Shown: positions 1,306 through 39,491, numbered from the stretch's first letter. The stretch: 42,148 nt of DNA from a candidate division WOR-3 bacterium (GCA_039801365.1 JBDRUN010000011.1:1-42148), one strand, 5' to 3'. The notes: generated by a model not told the origin, from the sequence alone. Numbers and translations: made by a program.

Positions 1306-1451
1306 CTGAATGGGGCTGTCCAAAGGACCGGCTCTTGTCCTGCTTAATGCAGTAAGGAGTCTGCCACGTATCGATTCCAGGAGACTCGGAAGAAAATTCT
1401 CCACTACCCTATTTGCTCTATTGAGGAGAACAAGGAACGGGTCATTCAGCA

Positions 1452-1515
1452 GTCGTTCAACGACGAACTGTCATTTTCCGGTGGCCAATCAATACCTTAG
1501 GTTCAATGACCTAAG
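1452..1515. repeat. Two short inverted repeats upstream of the PorQ-like gene
   Basis: GTCGTT-C-AACGAC (1452-1464) is a perfect 6-bp palindrome, and CTTAGGT-TCAATG-ACCTAAG (1496-1515) is a perfect 7-bp inverted repeat with a 6-nt loop. Both lie in the apparently non-coding 238 bp between the two genes. No T-run follows, so they look more like operators or an RNA structure than a terminator. Confidence 0.45.
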
Positions 1516-1543
1516 ATTCACCGGACGCTCTAAGACGGCCAGC

Positions 1544-2440
1544 GTGTTTTCGCGTTTCTGTGTGGCCCTGGTTATGCTTGCTCTCGTTGGGACGTTCGTA
1601 ACTGCTTTTGCCGGGATGTCGTCGCTCAAGATAATGCCGGGAGTGCGCGAGGCAGGGATGGGTAATGCCGGAGTCGCGTCTGCGTTCGGCCCCCAGGCGA
1701 TTGCCTGGAATCCTGCGGCTTCGGCGGCCGTATCGGGGTTCGCGGCGTGTGTTTCCTATGCGAAGTGGTTTGCAGACCTGCACCAACAGTCGGTCTACCT
1801 TACCCGTGACATCAGGCTTGGCGTGTTTGGCGTCGGCGCGACGAGCTTTACGGCTGGCAAGTTCGAGTACCGGACCGAGGTGCCGACCGAGGACCCGCTC
1901 GGCCTGTTTGTACCGGGCGAGTTCACTCTGCACCTCAATTTCTCGCGCCGGGTGAGCGGCGTGGTAGACGGCGGAATTGCGGCCCGGTATTACTACTCCA
2001 AGGTACTGGACCAGGCGGCGTCAGGGTTCGGATTTGATCTCGGAGTTCGGGCCGCTCCTTGGGACCAGCTCGTACTCGGGGCTTCGCTCGTTGATTTTGG
2101 CTGGAATCTCTCGTACTACCGCGAGCGGTTCAGGCTGCCGACAAGGGCCAGACTGGGCGTTACCTACAGGTTTGGACTTGGCGAGAATCTCGGGCTGAAT
2201 CTGACTGGCGAAGGCGTGCTGCACGTGTACACGCGGGACCTGAACGTCCATTCCGGAGTCGAGCTCGTGTGGCGCGAGGCGATTGCTCTGCGGGCTGGGT
2301 ACGAGCGACTCGAGGAGCTGGGTCGGGTGGGTTGTGGGCTCGGGTTGCGGCATGGCCTTTTCCGGCTCGACTACTCGCTTAGCGCTCTGAATGATAACCT
2401 CGGCGCAGCACACAGGATAGGTCTGAGTCTAAGCGGCTAG
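1544..2440 (+). CDS. PorV/PorQ-family outer-membrane beta-barrel protein (PorQ-like)
   Basis: A predicted 298-residue outer-membrane barrel. From GTG 1544 the protein opens with a classical signal peptide (hydrophobic core ALVMLALVGTFV, probable cleavage AFA|GMSS). It continues with the family hallmark of an MGNAGVASAFG-type segment followed by WNPAA. Later strands (GKFEYRTEVP, GFGFDLGVRA, LVLGASLVDFGWN, RLPTRARLGVTYRFG) follow the PorQ pattern, in which aromatic and glycine residues alternate in amphipathic strands. In Bacteroidetes PorQ is part of the T9SS attachment complex on the cell surface; that role is inferred here. An in-frame ATG at 1310 adds 78 residues that look untranslated and would push the signal peptide inside, so the later GTG is preferred although its ribosome site is weak. 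Confidence 0.68.
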   Translation: MFSRFCVALVMLALVGTFVTAFAGMSSLKIMPGVREAGMGNAGVASAFGPQAIAWNPAASAAVSGFAACVSYAKWFADLHQQSVYLTRDIRLGVFGVGATSFTAGKFEYRTEVPTEDPLGLFVPGEFTLHLNFSRRVSGVVDGGIAARYYYSKVLDQAASGFGFDLGVRAAPWDQLVLGASLVDFGWNLSYYRERFRLPTRARLGVTYRFGLGENLGLNLTGEGVLHVYTRDLNVHSGVELVWREAIALRAGYERLEELGRVGCGLGLRHGLFRLDYSLSALNDNLGAAHRIGLSLSG

Positions 2441-22113: not shown

Positions 22114-25100
22114 CTAGCGCACCAGCAACGTCTTGCGGGTCAGAATACCGGAGTCGGTCGCGAGGCGAACAAGATACACCCCGGCAGCGACCGGCTTCCC
22201 GGCGTCGTTCCTGCAGTCCCAGACAAACGAGTATTGACCACGGTCCAGTCTAGTATCCGCAAGCGTCTTGACCACCCGGCCAGCTATGTCGCAGACTGCA
22301 AGTCGCACCTGCCCAGGCTTCGGCAGCACAACGCTAATGACACTCTGCCTGTGCATGGGATTCGGTCCGGCACTCAATTCCAGCCTGTCCGTCTTGCCCC
22401 CTACTCCCTGCTCTCTAATCCCGGTCTGCACCGAGTCCGTGGTGTAGCGTATCGCCCGGCCCGGCACAATCTGAGACGCGGCCTTGTGATAGCTGCCGTC
22501 AAAAAGGCACTGGATACCGATTGCCCTGGTCTGGTCCTGGAGCCCAACCGTACTCGAGGTGTATTCGTTCGCAGTCATGTACTGTACGTCGAAAGAATTG
22601 TCGCCGGTCGGCCCGGACCTGGTCGTATCATAGAAGACAAACTCAAACTTGTCCCGGACCGAGCTGTCATAGTATTTGACCGAGTCGAATTCGACCACGA
22701 ACCGGTGGTTGGCGGCATCGTGATAGTAATAGACGTATCCTTGGCTTGAGTATCCCGGGTACAGGTCATCCCAGTTACCGCAGATTGCACCCGGCGGCGC
22801 CGACGAACTTGGCAGTGTAGTATTCGTGTAGTTCGTCGTGGTATAGTTGCCCGGTACTATCCAGCCGTCGGCCGAAACCGATATCTGGGTGTACCTCTGG
22901 CCATAATACCGCAAAGGCCCGAACCCGGTCGGCAGATTCACGACCACTACCGCGTCGTTATGACTGAAGTTTATCCTTGTGCCAACCGCGCTTATTTCAA
23001 CCCACTGGTAATCAGGCCTGGATACGTACAACGTATCGCAGTCGTCGTAAGCATAGTAGCGCGAAGGAGTCCTCGGCCCGTCCGGAATCGGGTCGGTGCT
23101 GATCAGCTCGCCAACTCCAAGATGGACGAGCCGCCGAGCCGCGTAATTCGTGCCGAATACAAAGAGCGAGCAGGGAATCTGACTCTCACGGGGAATCGAT
23201 CCTTGTGCTGACACGTGGAACCGATCCGCCGAGTTGAAGACCGTCGAGTCCGGCCGAACCAGACCGTAAGTCCCCAATGAATCAAGCACCACAAGCCGGG
23301 CGTCCAACGATCGGAGTCTGGCCGAAACGTTCTCCGCACTCCCCAGCCCGATGTTCTGCAGACCAAGTGCAATATCTGCCTCTTCACCAGGGTCGAGTTT
23401 GCGGTTGTTGTTTCCACCCGGCCTTGGGTCCCAGCATCTCACGCCTGCAGGCACAAGTTGGGCAGCACCGACCGCAAGCGGCAGGGGCGAGATATAGTTC
23501 GAATCAAACGTGTCCCGGCAAACCAGTACGACCGGCAACTGGTACCGGTTGGTACATGCCTCTGATACCCGGAACCGGTACCCGCTCGGGCCGGTCCACG
23601 CCGAATCTCCGGCCTGAACCGTACCGAAGTACCGAAGCGAGTCCAGAACCATCACCAGCGTGTCGGCCGATGTTTTACGTAAAATGCCCCTGATACCACG
23701 CGCCGGACCGTCGGTCCGGTTCAGAACCCAGAGCGGCAGGTTCACAGTCTCGCCCGGATTGATAATGCCGTCGCCGTTTCCGCCCGGCGGTGCATCGTCC
23801 ACGGTATGTTTGAGATACGTCACACCACGCGGCATCTTCTTGTCATACCACGACTGGGCCGAGTCAGCCCGGACCCGAATTTCTGCTTCCGAGGTGCCGC
23901 CGACGAAAGCGAAGGCAACCTTTTGTCGCTGCCCCGGTCCAAGATTGAACGGCCCGGCCGACACAACGCACGACCAGTTCGCACTCCGGTTCGAGTTGGG
24001 CATTCTTATCGCACCCCGCAGGAAGCTGTCCTTGACCGCTTCGGTCATCATTCCGGAAGGCTGGACATACACTGCATGGTCAATTGCCGACTGATTGGCT
24101 GCGACTGTTGGCGACAGCAGCTTGACGCCCACCGAAGGGTCGGCGCTTGACGACTGCATCATGTACGTGAGCCGGCGAATCGTGTCGGACACGACCCGGT
24201 TCGAAGTCGTGTTGTTCACGTCAAAGTCGGAGAAGATGCCGCAGTAGAGGCCATTGATTGCGCTTGCCCCCTGGTTGTCGAGCACGTACTCGATGATTAC
24301 AAAGTCCCGATAACCGGAACTGGCCAGCGCGCCAGACCACTGACTCACCCTCAGTCCCTTAGGTGTAGTGTGGGCCGCATCGGTGAAGCTCGCCCGGTAT
24401 TCCTCGTCGGCGGCAAAGGGCGGCCTTACTGCGGTCAGAGTCTCGGCAATCTGCCAGTCAGTGTTGTAGGTGGTACTCGGGTTGCCATACCATCGGTCAA
24501 CGACATAGGACGGCCCGTTACCGCAGGCAAGACTTGTGAAGTACAGCGAACCATATCCCGCATCGCGTGGGTATTTCATCCCTGAACCTTCGCGGTACGG
24601 CCCGAGCGTACCAACCGAACCTACGCACGTAACTGACAAGATTACATTTCCAGTGTCATGGTCCAGCCACAGCCCCCTTGCACCCGTTGCCTCGCCGACC
24701 CGCAGTTCGAAGAACGGCTCCCAGAAACCCTCGTTGGCCGAGCACGCGGCGAGCAGCTCGGCAAGTGTTCCCAGCGGAGTTGCCGAACTAGCGCTCACGC
24801 GGAACGCATCGCCTTCAACCGTGTCACCGGCGGCAATCGTGCCGTAGGTTGCCGTCGAGTCTGTCAAGGTAAGATAGGGACTGCTCGTACGCAGTGTGGC
24901 TGTGACCGCGGTCGCCGCAGTTGCACCAAGGTTTGCAACCGAGACGAACAGGTCCACGGTCTCACCCGGGTCCAGCCGGCCGTTGCCATCAGCGATTCTG
25001 CAACCGGCGAACACAAGCGCGGGCCTGTTGGATGTTCCGCGCACTGGAATGAGCATCTCGTATGGAAAATAGTTCTGCGCACTCACCGATAGTGCCATCG

Positions 25101-26994
25101 CGCCAGTCGTAGCCGGAGCGACAAACAGGTCCACCCAGCCTTGCGAGTTGGTGGCTCCTCGCGCATATGTCTCGGCACCCTTGCGCAGGCAGACCAGCGC
25201 TCCTTTCACCGGCGCAAGCCCATTTCTCACGCCTACTCGGAACACCTGCGGGCCGACAAGAGCTGAATCAGCACAGGTGACAGCGAGATTGCGCGGTACC
25301 TGAGTGAATATCGCCAGTGTCGGGTCACCGAAAAGATTCAGTTCATACACACACCAGCGCCACACCTCCTGCCCCATTGTCAGAGTCTGGAAATGGTCTT
25401 TTGACAATGCGTTCAGGGTCCCGAACTGAGAGGCGTCAGCATTGGTCAGGTGCCGGTAGAACTGCAAATCAAGCATCTCCGAAGGCCCGAAGGCCGGCGG
25501 ATACCCGAACCCGTAGCGCGAGTTCAGACAGCATGCGACGCACCCACCGTTTGCGGCCTTGACCAGTGCCTCAGCCAGGCACTCCTGGCCATCAAACCAC
25601 CCGGACTCGCACGCAATCGAGTTTACGAAATTGAGCTTGGTGAAGCCGTTGGTCAAACTCGGTACCTCGGATGAACTCATCACCGAGAACGTTGTCGGGC
25701 TGCCGTGTGCGGCCACGTGTGCCAGTTGATACCCCTGGTTCATCGCGTTACGGTACACGCCTGACGCTGGATCTTCAAGATGCGCAAACTGCCAACTGGT
25801 CGGGAACAATTCGGCAATCATTCGATTGATGACGCGGCCGTGGAACGGTGAGAACAGCATCGTCGAGCCCAGAAGCAGCTTCCTAAGGCAGGTCGTATCC
25901 TGGTACCGCTCGAACATCGTGTCCTTGGCAAAAAACACCGCCACGTCCGAAGCATTGTCCACCGGCGTGCGGCCGACGAATATGTCGTGGAACAGGTCCA
26001 TCGAATCCGTCATCTCACCAAACAGATTGTTACGGTTTGAGTCCCACGACCCCTGCAAGTCTGCGTAGTAAAAGTCAGTCGCGATGTCGCCGGTATTGCC
26101 CTCGCACACAATTCGCGCCAGCCGGACTGGAACTACTTCCGCATCGCCACCCACAAGCAGCCACTTCAATCCGTGGTTCTTCCAGTAATCAATCACGCAG
26201 TTGCGGATCTTCTCCTGATTGTCCCGGCCCGGATAAGTCGAGTAGACGGAGTCCGTTCTGATAATGACGGTCTTGATGCCTCGCTTGGTCTTCCAGTCGG
26301 CAAAAGGCTGGAATGCACTGGCCAGGCCGCCGGTGGTAATCACCGCCATGTCGCACAGCCAGTCGTCGGTAGTTTTCGTAGCCGGTTGCCAGCGGGCAAT
26401 GTCATTCGGATTTACGACCAGCGTTCGCGCGTACTCTCCCATCAGTCTGACTTGGGACTCATCCAATGCCAAAACCTCGTGCCCCCCGGTCTCGTAACGG
26501 ACTTCGACCCGCATGCGCGTCGCCAGCTCCAGCCGCTTCTCAACCGGGAAATACCGCAACGGCGCTACCTGCACACCTGCGATACGGTATCCGGAAAGGC
26601 ACCCAGTACGGGTGAAGCCAGCCGCTGCGGCCGGATAAGGCCGACCTGCCCGATAGGCCTTATCGTCGGGCCCAACAAACTCCTGCTTTGGCTGTGACAA
26701 TACTTGCGGCCGCTGGCACGGGTGAATGTAGAACTCACCCGGCACCGGCTCCCAGACCGCATCCTTGACCTCGACCGATACCACTTCTGCATCTGGCGGT
26801 ATCGCTACGTTATATGTGGCAATGGGTAAGAGCGGCTCGCCCGGCACCGAAGTCCAGTATTCGCCGGGCAAGGCGACTACGTCGAACCCGTTGGCCTTGT
26901 CGAACACGAACTGCTCAGGCCTGAACTCAATGTCCACGCTGACCAGGCCGGCCGCAGCCAGCACCGGAATCAAGAGAAGACCGATAGTACGCAC
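22114..26994 (-). CDS. Giant secreted C25 (gingipain-like) protease with C-terminal sorting-type domain
   Basis: A 1626-residue secreted protein. It starts at GTG 26994 with AGGAGG 4 nt upstream, and has a signal peptide (VRTIGLLLIPVLAAAG). After a propeptide-like region (about 20-230) comes the caspase-fold C25 domain (about 240-530) with His430 in VAAHGSPTT and Cys462 in NSIACESGW, spaced as in gingipains. Then several Ig/CARDB-like repeats contain D/N-G-(R/K)-LDPGE-x-x-D motifs (about 620-700, 1020-1060, 1150-1200). A lectin/propeller-like segment follows (about 1320-1510, NYTTTNYTNTTLPSS). The end (about 1535-1626) is a FlgD-like Ig domain beginning LSAGPNPM and finishing VAAGVYLVRLATDSGILTRKTLLVR in overall pattern, the T9SS-type sorting signal. 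Downstream of ruvB by 31 bp. The open frame continues upstream into ruvB but the Shine-Dalgarno marks the start. Confidence 0.88.
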   Translation of the reverse strand: MRTIGLLLIPVLAAAGLVSVDIEFRPEQFVFDKANGFDVVALPGEYWTSVPGEPLLPIATYNVAIPPDAEVVSVEVKDAVWEPVPGEFYIHPCQRPQVLSQPKQEFVGPDDKAYRAGRPYPAAAAGFTRTGCLSGYRIAGVQVAPLRYFPVEKRLELATRMRVEVRYETGGHEVLALDESQVRLMGEYARTLVVNPNDIARWQPATKTTDDWLCDMAVITTGGLASAFQPFADWKTKRGIKTVIIRTDSVYSTYPGRDNQEKIRNCVIDYWKNHGLKWLLVGGDAEVVPVRLARIVCEGNTGDIATDFYYADLQGSWDSNRNNLFGEMTDSMDLFHDIFVGRTPVDNASDVAVFFAKDTMFERYQDTTCLRKLLLGSTMLFSPFHGRVINRMIAELFPTSWQFAHLEDPASGVYRNAMNQGYQLAHVAAHGSPTTFSVMSSSEVPSLTNGFTKLNFVNSIACESGWFDGQECLAEALVKAANGGCVACCLNSRYGFGYPPAFGPSEMLDLQFYRHLTNADASQFGTLNALSKDHFQTLTMGQEVWRWCVYELNLFGDPTLAIFTQVPRNLAVTCADSALVGPQVFRVGVRNGLAPVKGALVCLRKGAETYARGATNSQGWVDLFVAPATTGAMALSVSAQNYFPYEMLIPVRGTSNRPALVFAGCRIADGNGRLDPGETVDLFVSVANLGATAATAVTATLRTSSPYLTLTDSTATYGTIAAGDTVEGDAFRVSASSATPLGTLAELLAACSANEGFWEPFFELRVGEATGARGLWLDHDTGNVILSVTCVGSVGTLGPYREGSGMKYPRDAGYGSLYFTSLACGNGPSYVVDRWYGNPSTTYNTDWQIAETLTAVRPPFAADEEYRASFTDAAHTTPKGLRVSQWSGALASSGYRDFVIIEYVLDNQGASAINGLYCGIFSDFDVNNTTSNRVVSDTIRRLTYMMQSSSADPSVGVKLLSPTVAANQSAIDHAVYVQPSGMMTEAVKDSFLRGAIRMPNSNRSANWSCVVSAGPFNLGPGQRQKVAFAFVGGTSEAEIRVRADSAQSWYDKKMPRGVTYLKHTVDDAPPGGNGDGIINPGETVNLPLWVLNRTDGPARGIRGILRKTSADTLVMVLDSLRYFGTVQAGDSAWTGPSGYRFRVSEACTNRYQLPVVLVCRDTFDSNYISPLPLAVGAAQLVPAGVRCWDPRPGGNNNRKLDPGEEADIALGLQNIGLGSAENVSARLRSLDARLVVLDSLGTYGLVRPDSTVFNSADRFHVSAQGSIPRESQIPCSLFVFGTNYAARRLVHLGVGELISTDPIPDGPRTPSRYYAYDDCDTLYVSRPDYQWVEISAVGTRINFSHNDAVVVVNLPTGFGPLRYYGQRYTQISVSADGWIVPGNYTTTNYTNTTLPSSSAPPGAICGNWDDLYPGYSSQGYVYYYHDAANHRFVVEFDSVKYYDSSVRDKFEFVFYDTTRSGPTGDNSFDVQYMTANEYTSSTVGLQDQTRAIGIQCLFDGSYHKAASQIVPGRAIRYTTDSVQTGIREQGVGGKTDRLELSAGPNPMHRQSVISVVLPKPGQVRLAVCDIAGRVVKTLADTRLDRGQYSFVWDCRNDAGKPVAAGVYLVRLATDSGILTRKTLLVR

Positions 26995-27025
26995 GTTACC
27001 TCCTGTGCCGTGGTTTCCCGGCATC

Positions 27026-28057
27026 CTATTCAAGTTCAAGTTCTGACTGGAACGAAGCCGCGGGCCGGCGTCTGAAGTGTTGGTATGCAAGCTTGGTCGC
27101 CATCCGGCCGCGCGGAGTCCTCTGCAGGAACCCTTCCTGCACCAGGAAAGGTTCGTATACTTCTTCGATTGTGCCGGTGTCCTCGCCCACTGCAACCGCA
27201 AGCGACGATATACCGACCGGGCCACCGTTGAATTTGTCAATCACCGTCAGCAGAATCTTCTTATCCATCTCGTCCAGTCCGCGGGTGTCCACATCCAATT
27301 GAGCAAGGGCGAATTCGGCAATCTCTTTGTCCACTCGTTCTTTGCCGTGCACCTGAGCAAAGTCCCGCACCCGACGCAAGAGCCGATTGGCGATTCGCGG
27401 GGTGCCCCGGGCGCGCCGGCCAATTTCCATTGCACCATCATCATCAACCGGGATGCCAAGAATCCGGGCTGAACGTTCAACGATTTCCACCAGGTCCTCA
27501 GCCGGATAGTAGTCCAGCCGGAAAGACATGCCGAACCGCGAACGCAATGGTGCGGTAAGAAGACCGGACCGGGTCGTTGCGCCAACCAACGTAAACCGGA
27601 CAAGGCTCAACCTTTCTGACCGCGCACCCGGGCCTCGGTCGAGCATCACATCAATTGCGTATTCCTCCAGCGCCGGGTATAGAAACTCCTCCACTGCCTT
27701 ATTGGTCCGATGAATCTCGTCAATGAAGAATATGTCGCCTGCGGCCAGGCCGGTGAGAATTCCGGCCAAGTCCACTGGCCGTTCAAGAATCGGGCCGGAG
27801 CTGCACCTGATGCGTGTACCCATCTCCTGCGCAATAATATAGGCGAGAGTGGTCTTGCCCAATCCAGGCGGCCCGAAGAACAGAACGTGTTCTAAAGGTT
27901 CCTCCCGCATCTTCGCCGCCTCGATAAATACCCGCAGGTTTTCCTTTAGCTTCTTCTGGCCGATAAACTCCGAAAGCCGCAGCGGTCTTATCTGTTCCTC
28001 CACTGCCGCTTCGCCGTCCAGTCGTCGGCCGGTAACGAGTCGCTCTTTTGGGGCCAT
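27026..28057 (-). CDS. ruvB: Holliday junction branch migration helicase RuvB
   Basis: The AAA+ motor (343 residues) that drives branch migration with RuvA. Near residues 20-35 is the [12 protein letters not shown] start; Walker A is GPPGLGKTT, Walker B is FFIDEIHR, sensor 1 is [17 protein letters not shown] with the arginine finger, and the C-terminal winged helix ends with [17 protein letters not shown]. All standard. Third gene of ruvC-ruvA-ruvB; ruvA ends 5 nt upstream. Confidence 0.98.
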
Positions 28058-30077: not shown

Positions 30078-30105
30078 ATTCTAGGTGGAGCTTGGACGCT
30101 GTCAA
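30078..30105 (-). promoter_or_regulatory. Promoter of yebC
   Basis: On the minus strand TTGACA (30105-30100), 16-bp spacer, TAGAAT (30083-30078), then a leader of about 28 nt with AAGGAGG. Identical in boxes and spacing to the divIVA and tRNA-Thr promoters. Confidence 0.8.
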
Positions 30106-30210: not shown

Positions 30211-33200
30211 ATGGCAAGCCGGCTTGCGCTGCTGTTCTTACTGTCACTGCCCGTTTCGGCCAGTGTCGTCGTAACAAAGTCGGATTCCAGGGGTGTCGCC
30301 TTCAGGTACGAGCCGGGCGAACCGGTTCTTGATTTTGGATTCCAAGTCTCGGATTCGGGGGTACCTGGAGTCCGGCAGGTAAAGGTCACCTTTCCAGATG
30401 CGGACAACCTGGCCGGGCCGGGTGAAATTGACCTGCCCGTCAAGGTGGTGCGCGTCGGCATTCCGCAGACCGGCGGTGCAAAGCTCAGTTTCAGAACCGG
30501 ACCGGTGCACGAGTACAGAGGAATAATTGTGCCAACAGCGGTACCAGTCGGCATCGGAAATGGAGGGCGGGAAGCAGTGAGTTGGAATAGCGGTCAGAAT
30601 CCAAGTGACCAGATGCAGGTACCGGTGGTTGAGCTCAGGCCGGTTCAACAGTTGCGGGATATCAGGTTTGTCGAAGTCCGGATCATGCCGGCGGTGTATC
30701 GCCCTGACACAAAGACGCTTGCCATTCATGAGTTGATCGAGGTAGAACTGACGTTCGATTCCGCAATCAGAAACCGGGAATCGCAAACCCAGCATCCCAA
30801 GACCGACCCACTAGACCCGGTCATAGGCCAGATGCTCCTGAACGGCAAACAGGCGCTGAATTGGAAAGTCGGACATGAAACTGACCGGCGCTGTTTCTTT
30901 GACCGGGCACCATACTGGGTGAAGATAAAAGTTGACAGTACCGGGCTTTACCGCATCCTGGGCAGTGCTCTCGAAGCCGCTGGAGCAAACATCGCCACGA
31001 TTGACCCGAACACTCTGGCCCTGTTCTCTGTGGGCGAACATGACCCGGAAAAACCGTTTCCAGACACAATGTGTGAGGTTCCGATGCTAGTGACCGGCGA
31101 TGAAGACGGTCGGTTCGACCGCCAAGACAAAATCATCTTCTACGGCCTGGCCGCGCGGCACTGGACAAGCGCCGGCTCGAACTTTGTCACGAACTACTAT
31201 ACCCGGTACAACGCGTACTGGCTTTCCTGGGGCGGCCGACCTGGAAAAAGAATCATGCAAGGATTTGGACCGGATACCAGTGAAACCCGGATTCTTCGCG
31301 ACGGCCTGGAAAAAGTTCGCCGGGAACAGGATACTGACTGTCCGGCCCGGTCAGGACTGCTGTGGATATGGCGCACCCTAACCAAAGACTCCTACCGCCA
31401 GGAGACAAGACTTGACATCGAGCTCCAACTTCCCAATCCGGTTGTGATTGAGCGCATCTCAGGCCGGCTGTATTCCGAAAGCATGGCCAATTGCCTTGCC
31501 CTCTACCTCAACCATCGGCTCCTTGATACGTTCCGTTTCGACGTTGCCGGGCCGTCTGAGCCGAAGGACTTCTCGGTCCAATCCGGGCTGCCAGCCAACT
31601 TCTCAAGCAACAAACTTACGCTGGTACTAACCGGTGACGGTGCCAAGAAGGTACACTTGGACTATCTGGAAGTGGAATACCGCCGCCGGCTTTCGCTCTA
31701 CCGCGGGCAGCTACATTTCATTGTGCCGGATACAGGTACGTTCCGTTTCGAAGTCTCTGACGTCCCGGCCCGACCGCTTATTATTGACGTGACTGACCGG
31801 TATGCTCCAAGGATGAACGACGGCTTCGAACAGACAGACAACAAGGTGCGTTTCTGCTACCGGGTGTGGCGGCCGACTGAGTTCTGTATCGCGACCGAGG
31901 ACCAGCTTCTGGCACCGGCAAGCATGTCGCTCCGCCAGCCGGGCAAAATTAGGTCCGGTGCGGTACAAGCCGACTATTGGGTCATCACACCGGCTGAGTA
32001 TCTGCCCGCAGCAACGCGACTCGCCCGGTACCGCTCCGACAATGTTGCCGGGTTCCCTGGCTGCCGCACGCGGGTCGCGGTCCTTGAAGACATCTACGAC
32101 GAATACGGATTCGGCATGGAAGAACCAGGTGCTATCAAGTGGTTCCTTGCTGATAAGCGGCCGGCCTATGGACTCCTGTGCGGGGACGCAACCTATGACT
32201 ATCTGAACAACCTGAAAAGGCAGCAGAATCCAGGCGTACCGGCGTACGAATTCGGGTTCGGATTAGACCCAAGCGGAATCCAGGGGCTCCTCACCCAGGC
32301 CTACGATGCATGGTATGCCGACTTCGATGGCAACGGCAGCAGCCCGGACATGATCCTTGGCCGGGTCACCTGTCGGACTGGACAGGAACTGGCCAAGTTC
32401 GTGGACAAACTTGTTGCCTACGAGAAGGAGCCAGCTGGAATGTGGAACAAGCGGTTTCTGCTCCTGGCCGATGACGAATGGCAGGGCCGCGGAAGTCCGG
32501 ACCCGATTTCATTCGGCCACATCCGGCAGGCTGAAGGAATTTCGGTTCTACCCGGCTCGCTTATGGAGCCGGTCAAGGTGTACCTGACCGAGTACCCGTT
32601 TACGGGCATCAAGAGCAAGGCCCAAGCCAAGCTCGAACTTCTGCGTCAACTTGTACGTGGCTGCTTGGCGCTAGTATTCTTCGGCCACGGTGATGCGTTT
32701 GACCTGTGTCACGAGAGCGTGTTCAACGTCTCGGAGGTGGATAAGGTCGAGAACGGCCCAAGATTACCATTCTGCTTCTTCGGCAGTTGCAGCGTCGGCC
32801 GGTTCGAGGACACGCGCTATGAATGTATTGCCGAGGAACTTGTGCGCCGGCCAGACGGTGGCGCGATTGCAACCGTCGCTGCGACCAAGGCAACCGCCTC
32901 GGGCGTGAACGAAGTTTTCTGTCGGCACATGTTCGTGCCGCTTTTCCGAGACTCCGCGCCTGAACCGGTCATTGGTACTGCGTTCTACGCGGCGTGGCCG
33001 GTGAACCGAATCTATCACCTGTTCGGCGATCCGGCAACAAGAATCCGCCGACCTCGGCGGTCAACTCAGAACCTAACCGTCTGGCCCGACACACTGCAGC
33101 CCGGGATACATATCAGGGCAAGGACGATAGTTGAGCTACCAGAAGCAGTTTTCTCGTGGACTGCATTCGGCCCACGACGGTACAGAATCTATCGGTCAGA

Positions 33201-34104
33201 ACGGGGCGAGACCGGATACTATCTGCCCGGGCTGGAGCTCAGCCGGGGCAACGGCCAAACACGCACCGGCCAACTGGGGTTTACAGTACAGTTTCCACTT
33301 GGTGTGCCGCTCGATACTGTTTTCGTCGGCGACGGGTTCTACACGCCGGTACCAAAGACGTGCCGGGTTAGCGTCTCGCTCGGCTGTGACTCAGCCGACG
33401 TCTCGTTGCTCGCGGACACGCTCGCCTTTGGTACAGAGCCGGTGCCAAGCACCGACCGGACCGGGCCCAAGGCAACTCTGTTCTTTCAAGACAAAGTACT
33501 TGAAGACAACTGCCAGGTGCCGGCCAGATTTGTTCTCGAAGGCGTGGTTTCTGACAGCTCCGGAGTCATGACCTGCCGAATTCCCGGTTACGAACCGCTA
33601 TTCTTCGTAAACTCCCGGGAGAACGAAACTGACCTGACCGACGTCCTAGTATTTGATGATAGTTCGAGTACGACCGCCCGGTTCCGTCTGGCAGTGAAAC
33701 TGGACGGCCCTTTCGACACCCTATGGGTAATCGCGGCCGACAACGTTCTCAATCGCAGCATCACAAGCATGGTGGTAAAGCCAGTACTGACCGACCAGCG
33801 CCTCGTGCTGGATTCCACGCTTGTGTATCCCAACCCGGTCAGACGGGAAGCGTACTTCACTTTTCGGCTCAACCGGGCCGCGTCAGTACGAGTAAGAATA
33901 TTCACGCTCCAAGGCAGGATGCTGCGCGACCTCGGCGACATTACCGGTGTGTTCGGCTATAACCAGGTAATCTGGGATGGCAAGGACCGTGACGGTCAGA
34001 TGCTTCCCAACGGCGTGTACCTTGTATCGCTCAGCGCACGAACGGCCGGGCCGACTGGCGCTGATGCGGTTTCAGTCCGGGAGCGATTTCTGGTCCTACG
34101 CTAG
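30211..34104 (+). CDS. porU: PorU-like C25 protein (T9SS sortase-type)
   Basis: A 1297-residue secreted C25-clan protein. ATG 30211 begins a signal peptide (SRLALLFLLSLPVSAS). The N-terminal region (about 20-330) has the PorU/gingipain propeptide-type pattern, with VEVRIMPAVYRPDTKTLAIHE near 155-175. The C25 domain follows (about 600-960) with His826 in FFGHGDAF and Cys860 in FGSCSVGRFED; the interval of 34 is like gingipains. An Ig-like region and a FlgD-type Ig domain (about 1210-1297: VYPNPVRREAYF, GYNQVIWDGKDRDG, LPNGVYLVSL) close it. PorU cleaves C-terminal sorting domains and attaches cargo to the surface. The PorV-family gene that follows 106 bp later matches the conserved porU-porV pair. 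An upstream ATG at 30085 adds 42 unlike residues and lies before the promoter. Confidence 0.82.
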   Translation: MASRLALLFLLSLPVSASVVVTKSDSRGVAFRYEPGEPVLDFGFQVSDSGVPGVRQVKVTFPDADNLAGPGEIDLPVKVVRVGIPQTGGAKLSFRTGPVHEYRGIIVPTAVPVGIGNGGREAVSWNSGQNPSDQMQVPVVELRPVQQLRDIRFVEVRIMPAVYRPDTKTLAIHELIEVELTFDSAIRNRESQTQHPKTDPLDPVIGQMLLNGKQALNWKVGHETDRRCFFDRAPYWVKIKVDSTGLYRILGSALEAAGANIATIDPNTLALFSVGEHDPEKPFPDTMCEVPMLVTGDEDGRFDRQDKIIFYGLAARHWTSAGSNFVTNYYTRYNAYWLSWGGRPGKRIMQGFGPDTSETRILRDGLEKVRREQDTDCPARSGLLWIWRTLTKDSYRQETRLDIELQLPNPVVIERISGRLYSESMANCLALYLNHRLLDTFRFDVAGPSEPKDFSVQSGLPANFSSNKLTLVLTGDGAKKVHLDYLEVEYRRRLSLYRGQLHFIVPDTGTFRFEVSDVPARPLIIDVTDRYAPRMNDGFEQTDNKVRFCYRVWRPTEFCIATEDQLLAPASMSLRQPGKIRSGAVQADYWVITPAEYLPAATRLARYRSDNVAGFPGCRTRVAVLEDIYDEYGFGMEEPGAIKWFLADKRPAYGLLCGDATYDYLNNLKRQQNPGVPAYEFGFGLDPSGIQGLLTQAYDAWYADFDGNGSSPDMILGRVTCRTGQELAKFVDKLVAYEKEPAGMWNKRFLLLADDEWQGRGSPDPISFGHIRQAEGISVLPGSLMEPVKVYLTEYPFTGIKSKAQAKLELLRQLVRGCLALVFFGHGDAFDLCHESVFNVSEVDKVENGPRLPFCFFGSCSVGRFEDTRYECIAEELVRRPDGGAIATVAATKATASGVNEVFCRHMFVPLFRDSAPEPVIGTAFYAAWPVNRIYHLFGDPATRIRRPRRSTQNLTVWPDTLQPGIHIRARTIVELPEAVFSWTAFGPRRYRIYRSERGETGYYLPGLELSRGNGQTRTGQLGFTVQFPLGVPLDTVFVGDGFYTPVPKTCRVSVSLGCDSADVSLLADTLAFGTEPVPSTDRTGPKATLFFQDKVLEDNCQVPARFVLEGVVSDSSGVMTCRIPGYEPLFFVNSRENETDLTDVLVFDDSSSTTARFRLAVKLDGPFDTLWVIAADNVLNRSITSMVVKPVLTDQRLVLDSTLVYPNPVRREAYFTFRLNRAASVRVRIFTLQGRMLRDLGDITGVFGYNQVIWDGKDRDGQMLPNGVYLVSLSARTAGPTGADAVSVRERFLVLR

Positions 34105-34153
34105 GCGAGAAGAAACCCGATGGAACGAACTAACTGCGGACCCCTGTCTTACT

Positions 34154-34181
34154 TTGACTTCGACCCGCGGCCTCTTATAAT
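34154..34181 (+). promoter_or_regulatory. Promoter of porV
   Basis: TTGACT (34154-34159), 16-bp spacer, TATAAT (34176-34181). A Shine-Dalgarno AAGGAG at 34196-34201 precedes ATG 34211. porV therefore has its own promoter although it follows porU. Confidence 0.78.
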
Positions 34182-34210
34182 CTATTTTCGAACATAAGGA
34201 GACCTAGTCT

Positions 34211-35335
34211 ATGGTAAGAAGAGCCTCCTGGCTTGCGCTAGTTGCGGCTACAATTGCGCTGGGCGCAGGCCAGAATCCGGGCGCGGTGTTCTTGATGATA
34301 TGGCCCGCGGCCCGGCCCACTGCAATGGCTGGCGCTTTCACTTCAATTGCTGACGACGCCAGCGCGATATACTACAATCCCGGCGGACTCGCTTTCCTAG
34401 AACGAACCCACGCCACTTTGATGCATTCGAACTGGCTGCCGGGTCTGTATCAGGGAATGTACTACGAGTACGGCGCAGTCGCACATCAGTTTCAGGGAAA
34501 AGGTACTGGAGGATTCAACGTTATCTATCTGACGACCGGTGAAACCGAGGTCATCAACGAACGCGGCGAGTACCTTGGCCGTTACACTACCTTCGACGTT
34601 TCTCCTGGCGTAGCATACGGGTACCCGGTACTGCCAAATCTCGGGGTCGGTGTGGGCGCAAAGTTCATCTATTCGTTTCTTGTGCCTGACTGGGTGTGGA
34701 AAGTCATGCCGGAACTTGGAATCGAAAGGGGTGGAACCGGTCTAACCTGGGCTCTTGACGCCGGCGCGCTGTACAAGCCTTGGCGCTTCCTGAACTTCGG
34801 TCTGTCATTGGCCAACTTCGGCCCGGACATTTCTTATACCGAGACCGGCGAAGGAGACCCGCTGCCAAGGATGCTGAGGCTCGGGCTTGCGTACTACCCG
34901 GTGAACAGCCAACACTTCCGGGTCGGCGTTGTACCTGAGATAAACAAAACGCTCGTCGGCATGTTCTACGACCCGAACGGCACAAAAAGCTTCGCCCAAG
35001 AACTTGCCACCGAGTGGCGCGACACTTGGAAGTCACTGGCCCTGGAGGGAACATTCCGGGCCGAGCAACTGGCTCTGGCTGCACGGGCAGCGTACTTTGA
35101 GGACCTTGACGGAGCACGGGGCGGCATCAAGATCGAGCGCGACGGTGGTTTGACCGAACACATCAGCTTGTGGGATGCCCTGACCCGCAAGGGACTCGGC
35201 AAGTTCAAGTCAGTGGGTCTCTGCTTCGGGGGCGGCATCGAGTTCGCCCGGTTCAAGTTTGACCTTAGTGTTGACCAGATGATCTACGACTTCAACACTC
35301 AGAACTACAAGTTCTCGCTTTCCTACCAATTCTAA
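34211..35335 (+). CDS. porV: PorV/LptO family outer-membrane protein
   Basis: A 374-residue barrel with signal peptide (WLALVAATIALGAG, cleavage near GQN). The PorV family signature is clear: FLMIWPAARPTAMAGAFTSIADDASAIYYNPGG in pattern, then repeated glycine/aromatic beta strands (GGFNVIYLTTGE, VSPGVAYGYPVLPNLGVGVGAKFIY, LNFGLSLANFGPDISY, PLPRMLRLGLAYY). It ends in SLSYQF, a C-terminal Phe typical of barrels. In Bacteroidetes PorV binds secreted T9SS cargo at the outer membrane and delivers it to PorU. Adjacent to the PorU-like gene here, supporting the same role. A second family member is at 1544. Confidence 0.9.
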   Translation: MVRRASWLALVAATIALGAGQNPGAVFLMIWPAARPTAMAGAFTSIADDASAIYYNPGGLAFLERTHATLMHSNWLPGLYQGMYYEYGAVAHQFQGKGTGGFNVIYLTTGETEVINERGEYLGRYTTFDVSPGVAYGYPVLPNLGVGVGAKFIYSFLVPDWVWKVMPELGIERGGTGLTWALDAGALYKPWRFLNFGLSLANFGPDISYTETGEGDPLPRMLRLGLAYYPVNSQHFRVGVVPEINKTLVGMFYDPNGTKSFAQELATEWRDTWKSLALEGTFRAEQLALAARAAYFEDLDGARGGIKIERDGGLTEHISLWDALTRKGLGKFKSVGLCFGGGIEFARFKFDLSVDQMIYDFNTQNYKFSLSYQF

Positions 35336-38133: not shown

Positions 38134-38161
38134 TTGACATTCAGGGTGCACAACGTAGATT
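38134..38161 (+). promoter_or_regulatory. Promoter-like sequence overlapping the next gene's start
   Basis: TTGACA (38134-38139), 16-bp spacer, TAGATT (38156-38161). It overlaps the TTG codon at 38160, so if used the true start must be further downstream, for instance GTG 38178. Confidence 0.6.
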
Positions 38162-39491
38162 GGTCATCATCAAGTCTGTGCTCGCCGGACTTTGCCTTGT
38201 AACCGCATTTGCTCTTGGACAGGCGGTTGAGGTACCGAAGAGTTTTGACTCCGGTGGCCTGCTGTATCGGCTCAGCCCGGACGCGTGGGCCCAGACCGGC
38301 ATTTTCCCTGAACTTGCTGGCTTCAACTATCTGGAACTGTGGCAGACTGAGGATGGCGTCGTGCTGGAAGTTTACCGGCCGGACCGAACAAGGGTGCGTC
38401 GCCGCATATCGCAGGAAGAGCTTGTGCTGATCCGACAGCAGGTCGACGCCCATCTGCGGCAGCAGCCGAAGCGGCTGAACCAGGAGGGCCGAGGCAGTTT
38501 TCTTCTGCAGCAGATACCACTGGCACTTGGATGGTACGGTCCGGCCACGACCGCGCTGCTGATTCCGAAGGCCGACCTCCAGTATCAGGCAGCACTGTCT
38601 TTGGTCGTTTCTTCAGCGGCTTTCTTCGCTCCGCTACTTGCGATGCGCAACATGAAGATGACCCAGGCCCAGGCGCATCTCTGTGTGGCAAACGGCTATC
38701 GGGGCGTGCTTGCCGGGTATCTGGTAGGCCACATGTTCCACATCAGCGAATACCGTGCTTACTCGGCGATAATGATGGTCGCAAGCATTGGCGGTCAGGT
38801 CGCCGGGTACCGGCTTGCGGACAAGCTAAGCCTGGGCCAGGCCACGCTCGTGACTGCCTATACCGACCTCGGTCTTCTGGATGGTGCGCTGCTCGGCGCG
38901 GCAATTCGCGACTGGACCGATGACCCGAAGCGGTACAACATATCGCTTTCGGCCTGGAGTCTTGCCGGTCTTGCTGGAGGCAGCGTGGCCGGTAATATAA
39001 TCGCGCCGAAGTGGGACTGTACCGAAGGCCAAGTCACGGCACTGCGTACTGGTACCATTGTCGGCGCCGCAGTTCCGCTAGCGCTGTACGCCACTCTTGC
39101 CGAAGACTTCAGCCCCCCAGCTTTTCTGCTCGGCATCGGGGGCAGCATCGGCGGAACATTGTGGGCCCAGAGTTCGATTCGACTTCACCAGCTCAGTAAC
39201 GGCAACGGGCTAATTGTGACCGGCATGACCCTCGGCGGCGCCCTGTTTGGTGCCGGACTGGGCGTGTTGACGAATCAGTCGAAAGTAGTCTCAGTCGCGG
39301 GCTCGATTGGTGCGATTGGAGGTCTTGCCGGCGGCTTGGCCTTGGCGAAAAGCCTGCAAGCCGGACAGAGTAGTCAGAGTCGGCTCGAACCGCGCCTGGA
39401 GTTCAACTGTGCCGGAATCATCTGCGGTGTTGCACACTATGCCGTGAACCAGCGGTTCGGCGTGCCGGACCTAGTCACGGTTCGGTTCTAG
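38160..39491 (+). CDS. Unknown exported protein, signal peptide plus glycine-zipper membrane segments
   Basis: A protein of up to 443 residues, no known family. It has an N-terminal hydrophobic segment (VLAGLCLVTAFALG, residues 7-20) followed by a soluble 100-residue part (PKSFDSGGLLYRLSPDAW), then many hydrophobic helices rich in small residues: SLVVSSAAFFAPLLA, GYRGVLAGYLVGHM, AIMMVASIGGQVAGY, WSLAGLAGGSVAGNI, FLLGIGGSIGGTLW, GMTLGGALFGAGLGVL, VAGSIGAIGGLAGGLALA. Repeated GxxxG packing is typical of glycine-zipper membrane proteins and pore formers. The C-terminus is strand-like and ends in VTVRF with a C-terminal Phe. Start uncertain: TTG 38160 overlaps a promoter -10; GTG 38178 is an alternative. 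Isolated gene with its own promoter after a divergent tRNA. Confidence 0.72.
   Translation: MVIIKSVLAGLCLVTAFALGQAVEVPKSFDSGGLLYRLSPDAWAQTGIFPELAGFNYLELWQTEDGVVLEVYRPDRTRVRRRISQEELVLIRQQVDAHLRQQPKRLNQEGRGSFLLQQIPLALGWYGPATTALLIPKADLQYQAALSLVVSSAAFFAPLLAMRNMKMTQAQAHLCVANGYRGVLAGYLVGHMFHISEYRAYSAIMMVASIGGQVAGYRLADKLSLGQATLVTAYTDLGLLDGALLGAAIRDWTDDPKRYNISLSAWSLAGLAGGSVAGNIIAPKWDCTEGQVTALRTGTIVGAAVPLALYATLAEDFSPPAFLLGIGGSIGGTLWAQSSIRLHQLSNGNGLIVTGMTLGGALFGAGLGVLTNQSKVVSVAGSIGAIGGLAGGLALAKSLQAGQSSQSRLEPRLEFNCAGIICGVAHYAVNQRFGVPDLVTVRF

Follow-up and report, generated by a model that had tools for sequence, protein, structure and literature searches.

A gene for a C25-family peptidase directly followed by one for an outer-membrane barrel, in a bacterium placed outside Bacteroidetes, raises the question of whether a type IX secretion system (T9SS) is encoded there, which of its parts are present and what could power it. 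The pair lies in a stretch of 42,148 nucleotides (hereafter the window), which is contig C11 of a 2.5 Mb genome that is 95.6% complete. An earlier note on this DNA had read the two genes as porU and porV, the first encoding a 1297-residue C25 protein with intact His826 and Cys860 and a FlgD-type C terminus, and had proposed a T9SS in a phylum other than Bacteroidetes. Considering the evidence given below, we regard it as probable that the window carries the porU-porV pair of an outer-membrane export system of the T9SS type, which is conserved throughout candidate division WOR-3 (NCBI phylum name, Caldifarciminota) and has no recognisable PorKLMN chain.

The porU-porV pair of the window

The features of the window are collected in Table 1. 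For porU, the ATG at 30211 is a better start than an in-frame GTG at 30085, from which a longer ORF is possible, because a plain signal-peptide-like N terminus (MASRLALLFLLSLPVSAS) follows the ATG. The domains assigned by Pfam, including a FlgD_ig match at residues 1215-1279 (28.8 bits), agree with the architecture proposed previously, and the His/Cys dyad is invariant across the PorU clade. With the sorting-domain model TIGR04183, the C terminus reaches 20.8 bits (cut-off 23) and that of a sister PorU (L086) 26.7 bits. The NCBIfam PorU model NF033707 matches the window protein over its full length (381.8 bits, E 6e-114), 38 bits short of the curated equivalog cut-off of 420 bits; since this is a database threshold and no biological feature, missing it lowers certainty only. 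The same cut-off is exceeded by PorU orthologues in 31 of 60 genomes of the phylum, and the same-family orthologue L086 scores 430.4 bits.

Table 1. Features of the window, with positions counted from its first nucleotide.
Feature	Position	Strand	Details
PorU-clade C25 protein, putative T9SS sortase	30211..34104	+	1297 aa, N-terminal signal peptide; assigned by profiles, tree, PDB search and fold
Propeptide_C25-like N-terminal region	30370..30777	+	residues 54-189; Pfam Propeptide_C25, 35.9 bits
Peptidase_C25 catalytic domain	31975..33042	+	residues 589-944; Pfam, 198 bits
Catalytic His826 codon	32686..32688	+	invariant in 36/36 PorU-clade sequences
Catalytic Cys860 codon	32788..32790	+	invariant in 36/36 PorU-clade sequences
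C-terminal sorting-type Ig domain, FlgD_ig / Por_Secre_tail-like	33823..34101	+	motif YPNP...WDG.D..G..NGVY
PorV-family outer-membrane barrel	34211..35335	+	374 aa; 106 bp downstream of porU
Second PorV-family barrel, away from porU	1310..2440	+	NF033709, 142.2 bits
Second C25 protein, gingipain-like branch	22114..27240	-	1708 aa; TIGR04183, 26.1 bits (cut-off 23)

The genome holds 19 C25 matches, so it matters whether this protein is a PorU or an ordinary gingipain-like peptidase. In a maximum-likelihood tree it groups with 36 other PorU-like sequences with a support of 100 (sisters L089 and L086), and the gingipain-like C25 proteins of the genome, including the second C25 protein of the window, form a separate group; because some branches of the tree are long, only this main split was used. 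A sequence search against the PDB returned Porphyromonas gingivalis PorU as the best match (6za2, E 2e-17, residues 224-953), with gingipains at only 1e-4, and an AlphaFold2 model of residues 98-1297 (pLDDT 84) also found 6za2 first and over its full length (E 1.4e-52), with gingipains at 1e-18. By tree, PDB sequence search, fold and invariant His826/Cys860, the window protein is of the PorU type and not a generic secreted C25 peptidase. By analogy with Bacteroidota, it would cleave sorting domains and attach cargo, and the second C25 protein of the window, judging from its C-terminal type A sorting domain, is probably T9SS cargo.

The barrel encoded next to porU matches the PorV family (NF033709, 151.6 bits, cut-off 90; Pfam PorV, 28.5, cut-off 27) and scores higher as PorV (81.3 bits) than as PorQ (55.3 bits), far below the cut-off of 250 of the narrow PorV equivalog NF033710; in other families, the PorU-linked barrels consistently score higher as PorV than as PorQ too. 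Its model (pLDDT 71) has PorV chains of the T9SS translocon as the best fold matches (8gl6_F and 6h3i_F, E 2e-16), followed by FadL-type proteins (2e-10). Scores below the cut-offs, for PorU and for PorV, are expected of divergent homologues and are also compatible with a changed function. The order of the two genes, which lie on the same strand, was seen again at five of 20 other PorU loci inspected across the phylum. The porU-porV pair suggested in the earlier note is therefore real, as the full-length NF033707 match, the tree, the folds and the recurring order indicate, and the concern that the C25 domain might group with unrelated secreted peptidases is answered by the tree. A chance neighbourhood of an unrelated, secreted gingipain-like peptidase and a FadL-like transporter, which could draw on the 19 C25 matches of the genome and on the FadL relatedness of the PorV family, is extremely improbable and was largely ruled out by the PDB sequence search, the tree, both fold matches and the recurring adjacency. 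The pair is no product of chance.

Around the pair, the window carries divergent yebC and ruvAB upstream and purA downstream. The second PorV-family gene sits between a 381-aa ORF and a gene for an acetyl-CoA carboxylase subunit, and a 443-aa ORF (38160-39491, + strand) has no Pfam match. The same genome encodes a second PorU paralogue (L088, contig C2, 15.7-18.9 kb, 355.5 bits), and a chromate-transporter gene was observed near this paralogue in four genomes of the same order. In several families (L073, L078, L079, L081, L085, L089), porU is preceded by genes for a peptidase-MA/TolB-propeller/Omp85 fusion of about 950 aa and a putative lipoprotein of about 420 aa, which are possibly part of the secretion system.

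Distribution across Caldifarciminota

The closest named relatives of the window PorU belong to two MAGs of candidate division WOR-3 (57-61% identity), in line with the suspicion that the host lies outside Bacteroidetes. PorU-like proteins were found in all 60 genomes sampled from the phylum, and contamination of one MAG is therefore excluded as an explanation. The SprA/Sov translocon was detected in 58 of the 60 genomes, above the cut-off in 53 of them, and in 49 of the 49 good genomes. The SprA of the genome studied here is a fragment at the end of contig C72 (439.6 bits, cut-off 200); a full-length relative reaches 497.8 bits and matches the SprA structures of the PDB (E 3e-37). A small ComEA-like helix-hairpin-helix protein is encoded directly downstream of SprA, or near it, in six genomes (L052, L053, L055, L056, L059, L065). 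Moreover, the PorV family was present in 30 of 30 genomes, with 4 to 22 copies each (ten in this genome, two of them in the window), and so were type A sorting domains (TIGR04183), with 15 to at least 134 per genome and at least 134 in this one, counts that may include non-cargo Ig tails because the sorting-domain and FlgD_ig models overlap.

Sequence data show that SprA, PorU, PorV and many sorting domains are present, and the predicted folds of PorU and PorV bear this out for these two. The proposal of a T9SS in another phylum held for the translocon, PorU, PorV and CTD cargo, which occur phylum-wide, with Sov/SprA recovered from the genome itself; it did not hold for PorK, PorL, PorM and PorN, which by profile were above the cut-off neither in this genome nor in any of the 60 sampled from the phylum. 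As far as the sequences indicate, the WOR-3 set is a T9SS-type translocon, sortase, carrier and cargo without a recognisable PorKLMN chain rather than a standard T9SS. Measured against a strict list of components, the system falls short of a complete canonical T9SS; judged by its translocon, its carrier, its sortase-like protein and the cargo signal, it should function as one.

Export, cleavage and surface attachment in WOR-3, as well as any role of TonB, we infer from known systems. Cargo exported by Sec and bearing a C-terminal Ig-like sorting domain would enter the SprA barrel, where a docked PorV-family carrier would capture the sorting domain and depart with the cargo. PorU, presumably anchored to the cell surface by a sorting domain of its own, would then remove the sorting domains of the cargo with its C25 His/Cys dyad.

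Ton operons, large transporters and PorV-family barrels

ExbB/MotA-type proteins occur in 60 of the 60 genomes, and a conserved ExbB-ExbD-ExbD-TonB operon surrounds the ExbB genes. Downstream of this Ton operon, many families encode a large TonB-dependent transporter of the CarboxypepD_reg type, a protein with a C-terminal sorting domain and a PorV-family barrel; the Ton operon of family f14 has no PorV gene beside it. One locus of the genome studied here (L110, contig C8) encodes ExbB, ExbD, ExbD, TonB, a CTD protein, an unknown protein, the transporter, another CTD protein and a PorV-family barrel, and so contains the whole Oar-type set (ExbB, two ExbD, TonB and a CarboxypepD_reg transporter). 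A PorV gene was found within 12 kb of ExbB in 15 of 30 genomes against an expectation of 4.0 (p 3e-7 on the assumption that genomes are independent), and, among the matches listed (at most the best 150 by E-value in either list), a PorV gene lay within 8 kb of 17 of the 21 TonB-dependent transporters of at least 820 aa, versus one of the 58 shorter ones (p 1.3e-12). The transporter, the CTD protein and PorV form a one-strand module in nine further loci, including L167 on contig C12 of this genome, and five further loci show the order transporter, PorV, another gene and CTD protein. The CTD-ended proteins of these modules (L167 on contig C12, L110 on contig C8, L150-L164) belong to no known family. 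Most of the linked barrels look more like PorQ/PorV2 than like PorV; in families f7 and f8, it is the PorV-like barrel that lies with ExbBD.

It is quite possible that these sets are SusCD-like nutrient importers, each with a surface lid exported by the T9SS and tethered by its own PorV-family barrel. The CarboxypepD_reg-Plug-barrel transporters resemble RagA/SusC, the module is repeated with differing CTD partners, and type B substrates have dedicated carriers that stay bound to the cargo, as SprF does in tethering SprB (PMC12635249). However, ordinary short transporters show no PorV linkage, and an uptake function is silent on the energy of secretion and would leave the T9SS without a known energy source.

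The energy step and the relation to known secretion systems

In Bacteroidota, PorK, PorL, PorM and PorN make up an energy chain, driven by the PMF, that expels loaded PorV from SprA (PMC10994853). GldL, GldM (two models), GldN and GldK were above the cut-off in none of the 60 genomes, near-complete ones in 4 to 7 contigs among them, in a profile search run without a T9SS-positive Bacteroidota control. PorL, PorM and PorN are short and fast-evolving, so that their absence by profile may reflect divergence, and the lack of such a control among the genomes searched leaves room for GldKLMN genes diverged beyond recognition. Nonetheless, a divergent PorKLMN chain lying below profile detection appears rather doubtful. 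Short, fast-evolving membrane proteins could escape in this manner, and weak sub-threshold matches to GldL and GldM_1st do exist, but they are equally frequent in control genomes, archaea included, and were dropped as motor candidates on both grounds. Against such a chain are also the soluble protein GldN, with no real match in 60 genomes, and the GldK-like matches, which proved to be generic FGE-sulfatase domains with a patchy distribution, also found in the controls Bacillus and Methanosarcina. Besides, no gldKLMN-like cluster was found beside SprA or PorU, and only housekeeping genes (dxs, prenyl synthase, folD, comEA-like, PBP2 and purL) were recognised when the genes around SprA were inspected for a hidden motor. 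TPR proteins of 800-956 aa encoded between the TonB operon and the PorV-family gene (L134, L137, L138, L142; families f2, f3, f11 and f24) were considered as PorW/SprE and rejected, with 126 bits (cut-off 250) versus 286 bits to YbgF, a resemblance at the TPR level only.

Because no GldLM/PorLM motor and no PorKN ring are detectable, the energy step in WOR-3 cannot use recognisable versions of them. This step would be the ejection of the loaded carrier, and TonB-ExbBD is the leading candidate drive. In Myxococcus xanthus, the protease PopC is secreted via the transporter Oar with exbB1, exbD1, exbD2 and tonB1, a process reconstituted in Escherichia coli (PMC6434023); GldLM, reported only from Bacteroidetes, falls into the same class of 5:2 motors as ExbBD (PMC9389320); and in Fibrobacter an ExbB/ExbD/ExbD/TonB operon rises along with CTD-bearing cellulases (PMC6851124). 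Taken together, these three precedents suggest that TonB-ExbBD may replace GldLM.

A variant in which the ExbB-ExbD-ExbD-TonB motor, acting via Oar-like transporters encoded with CTD proteins and PorV carriers, replaces the force of GldLM and PorKN would agree with those precedents, with the ubiquity of ExbB and its conserved operon, with the proximity of PorV and ExbB genes, with the PorV linkage of the long transporters among the matches listed, with both module orders and with the PorV-like barrels of f7 and f8. It is nevertheless unlikely on present evidence, considering that it rests on gene linkage and that contact of TonB with SprA or PorV is hypothetical, that TonB-ExbBD usually powers uptake, that most of the linked barrels are not PorV-like, that the Ton operon of f14 lacks a PorV neighbour, and that one Ton operon may serve transporters only. 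No obvious TonB-box-like motif was seen by eye in the variable N termini of SprA, and a Ton drive and uptake cannot be separated by linkage alone. We offer it only as a speculative and decidedly improbable possibility that the energy chain of the Caldifarciminota T9SS is TonB-ExbBD via Oar-like transporters and not GldLM/PorKN, in which case the translocon-carrier-sortase set would be separable from the Bacteroidota gliding motor, and perhaps older.

The T9SS has been called Bacteroidetes-specific in a review (PMC7463736) and was found in Bacteroidetes only by TXSScan (PMC4793230); a 2024 paper considered it possible in other FCB phyla, with the genes absent elsewhere (PMC11285876), and SprA has been termed FCB-specific (PMC12611786). 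Our literature search, made by the name WOR-3 rather than Caldifarciminota, found no paper joining this division and type IX secretion. A further whole phylum that has SprA, PorU and PorV along with dozens of CTD proteins, and no detectable GldLM/KN, makes it testable which T9SS parts are ancestral and whether another motor can drive the translocon, and the transporter-CTD-PorV module provides a concrete gene set for such tests.

Among known proteins, P. gingivalis PorU (6za2; NF033707) shares with the window protein the whole-length fold, the domain order, the C25 dyad, the C-terminal sorting-type domain and a PorV partner, whereas the identity is about 16% in a structural alignment, the NCBIfam score falls 38 bits below the cut-off, the phylum differs and the sortase role is putative. 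The window barrel, which adjoins porU, has the barrel fold and subfamily profile of Flavobacterium johnsoniae PorV (6h3i/8gl6; NF033709/NF033710) but stays under the narrow equivalog cut-off, in a phylum whose genomes each hold 4 to 22 members of the family. Oar secretion in M. xanthus has ExbB, two ExbD, TonB and a CarboxypepD_reg transporter in common with WOR-3; SprA, PorV and CTDs are not known to take part in it, whereas in WOR-3 the genes of the set are linked to those for PorV and CTD proteins. The T9SS of Fibrobacter succinogenes likewise has CTDs outside Bacteroidota, and its ExbB-ExbD-ExbD-TonB genes are co-expressed with CTD enzymes, in a phylum different from WOR-3. With the Bacteroidota T9SS (SprA/Sov, PorKLMN, PorUVQZ), the WOR-3 system shares SprA, PorU, the PorV family and type A sorting domains; it differs in that PorK, PorL, PorM and PorN are undetected and in that its PorV family is expanded and tied to TonB-dependent transporters.
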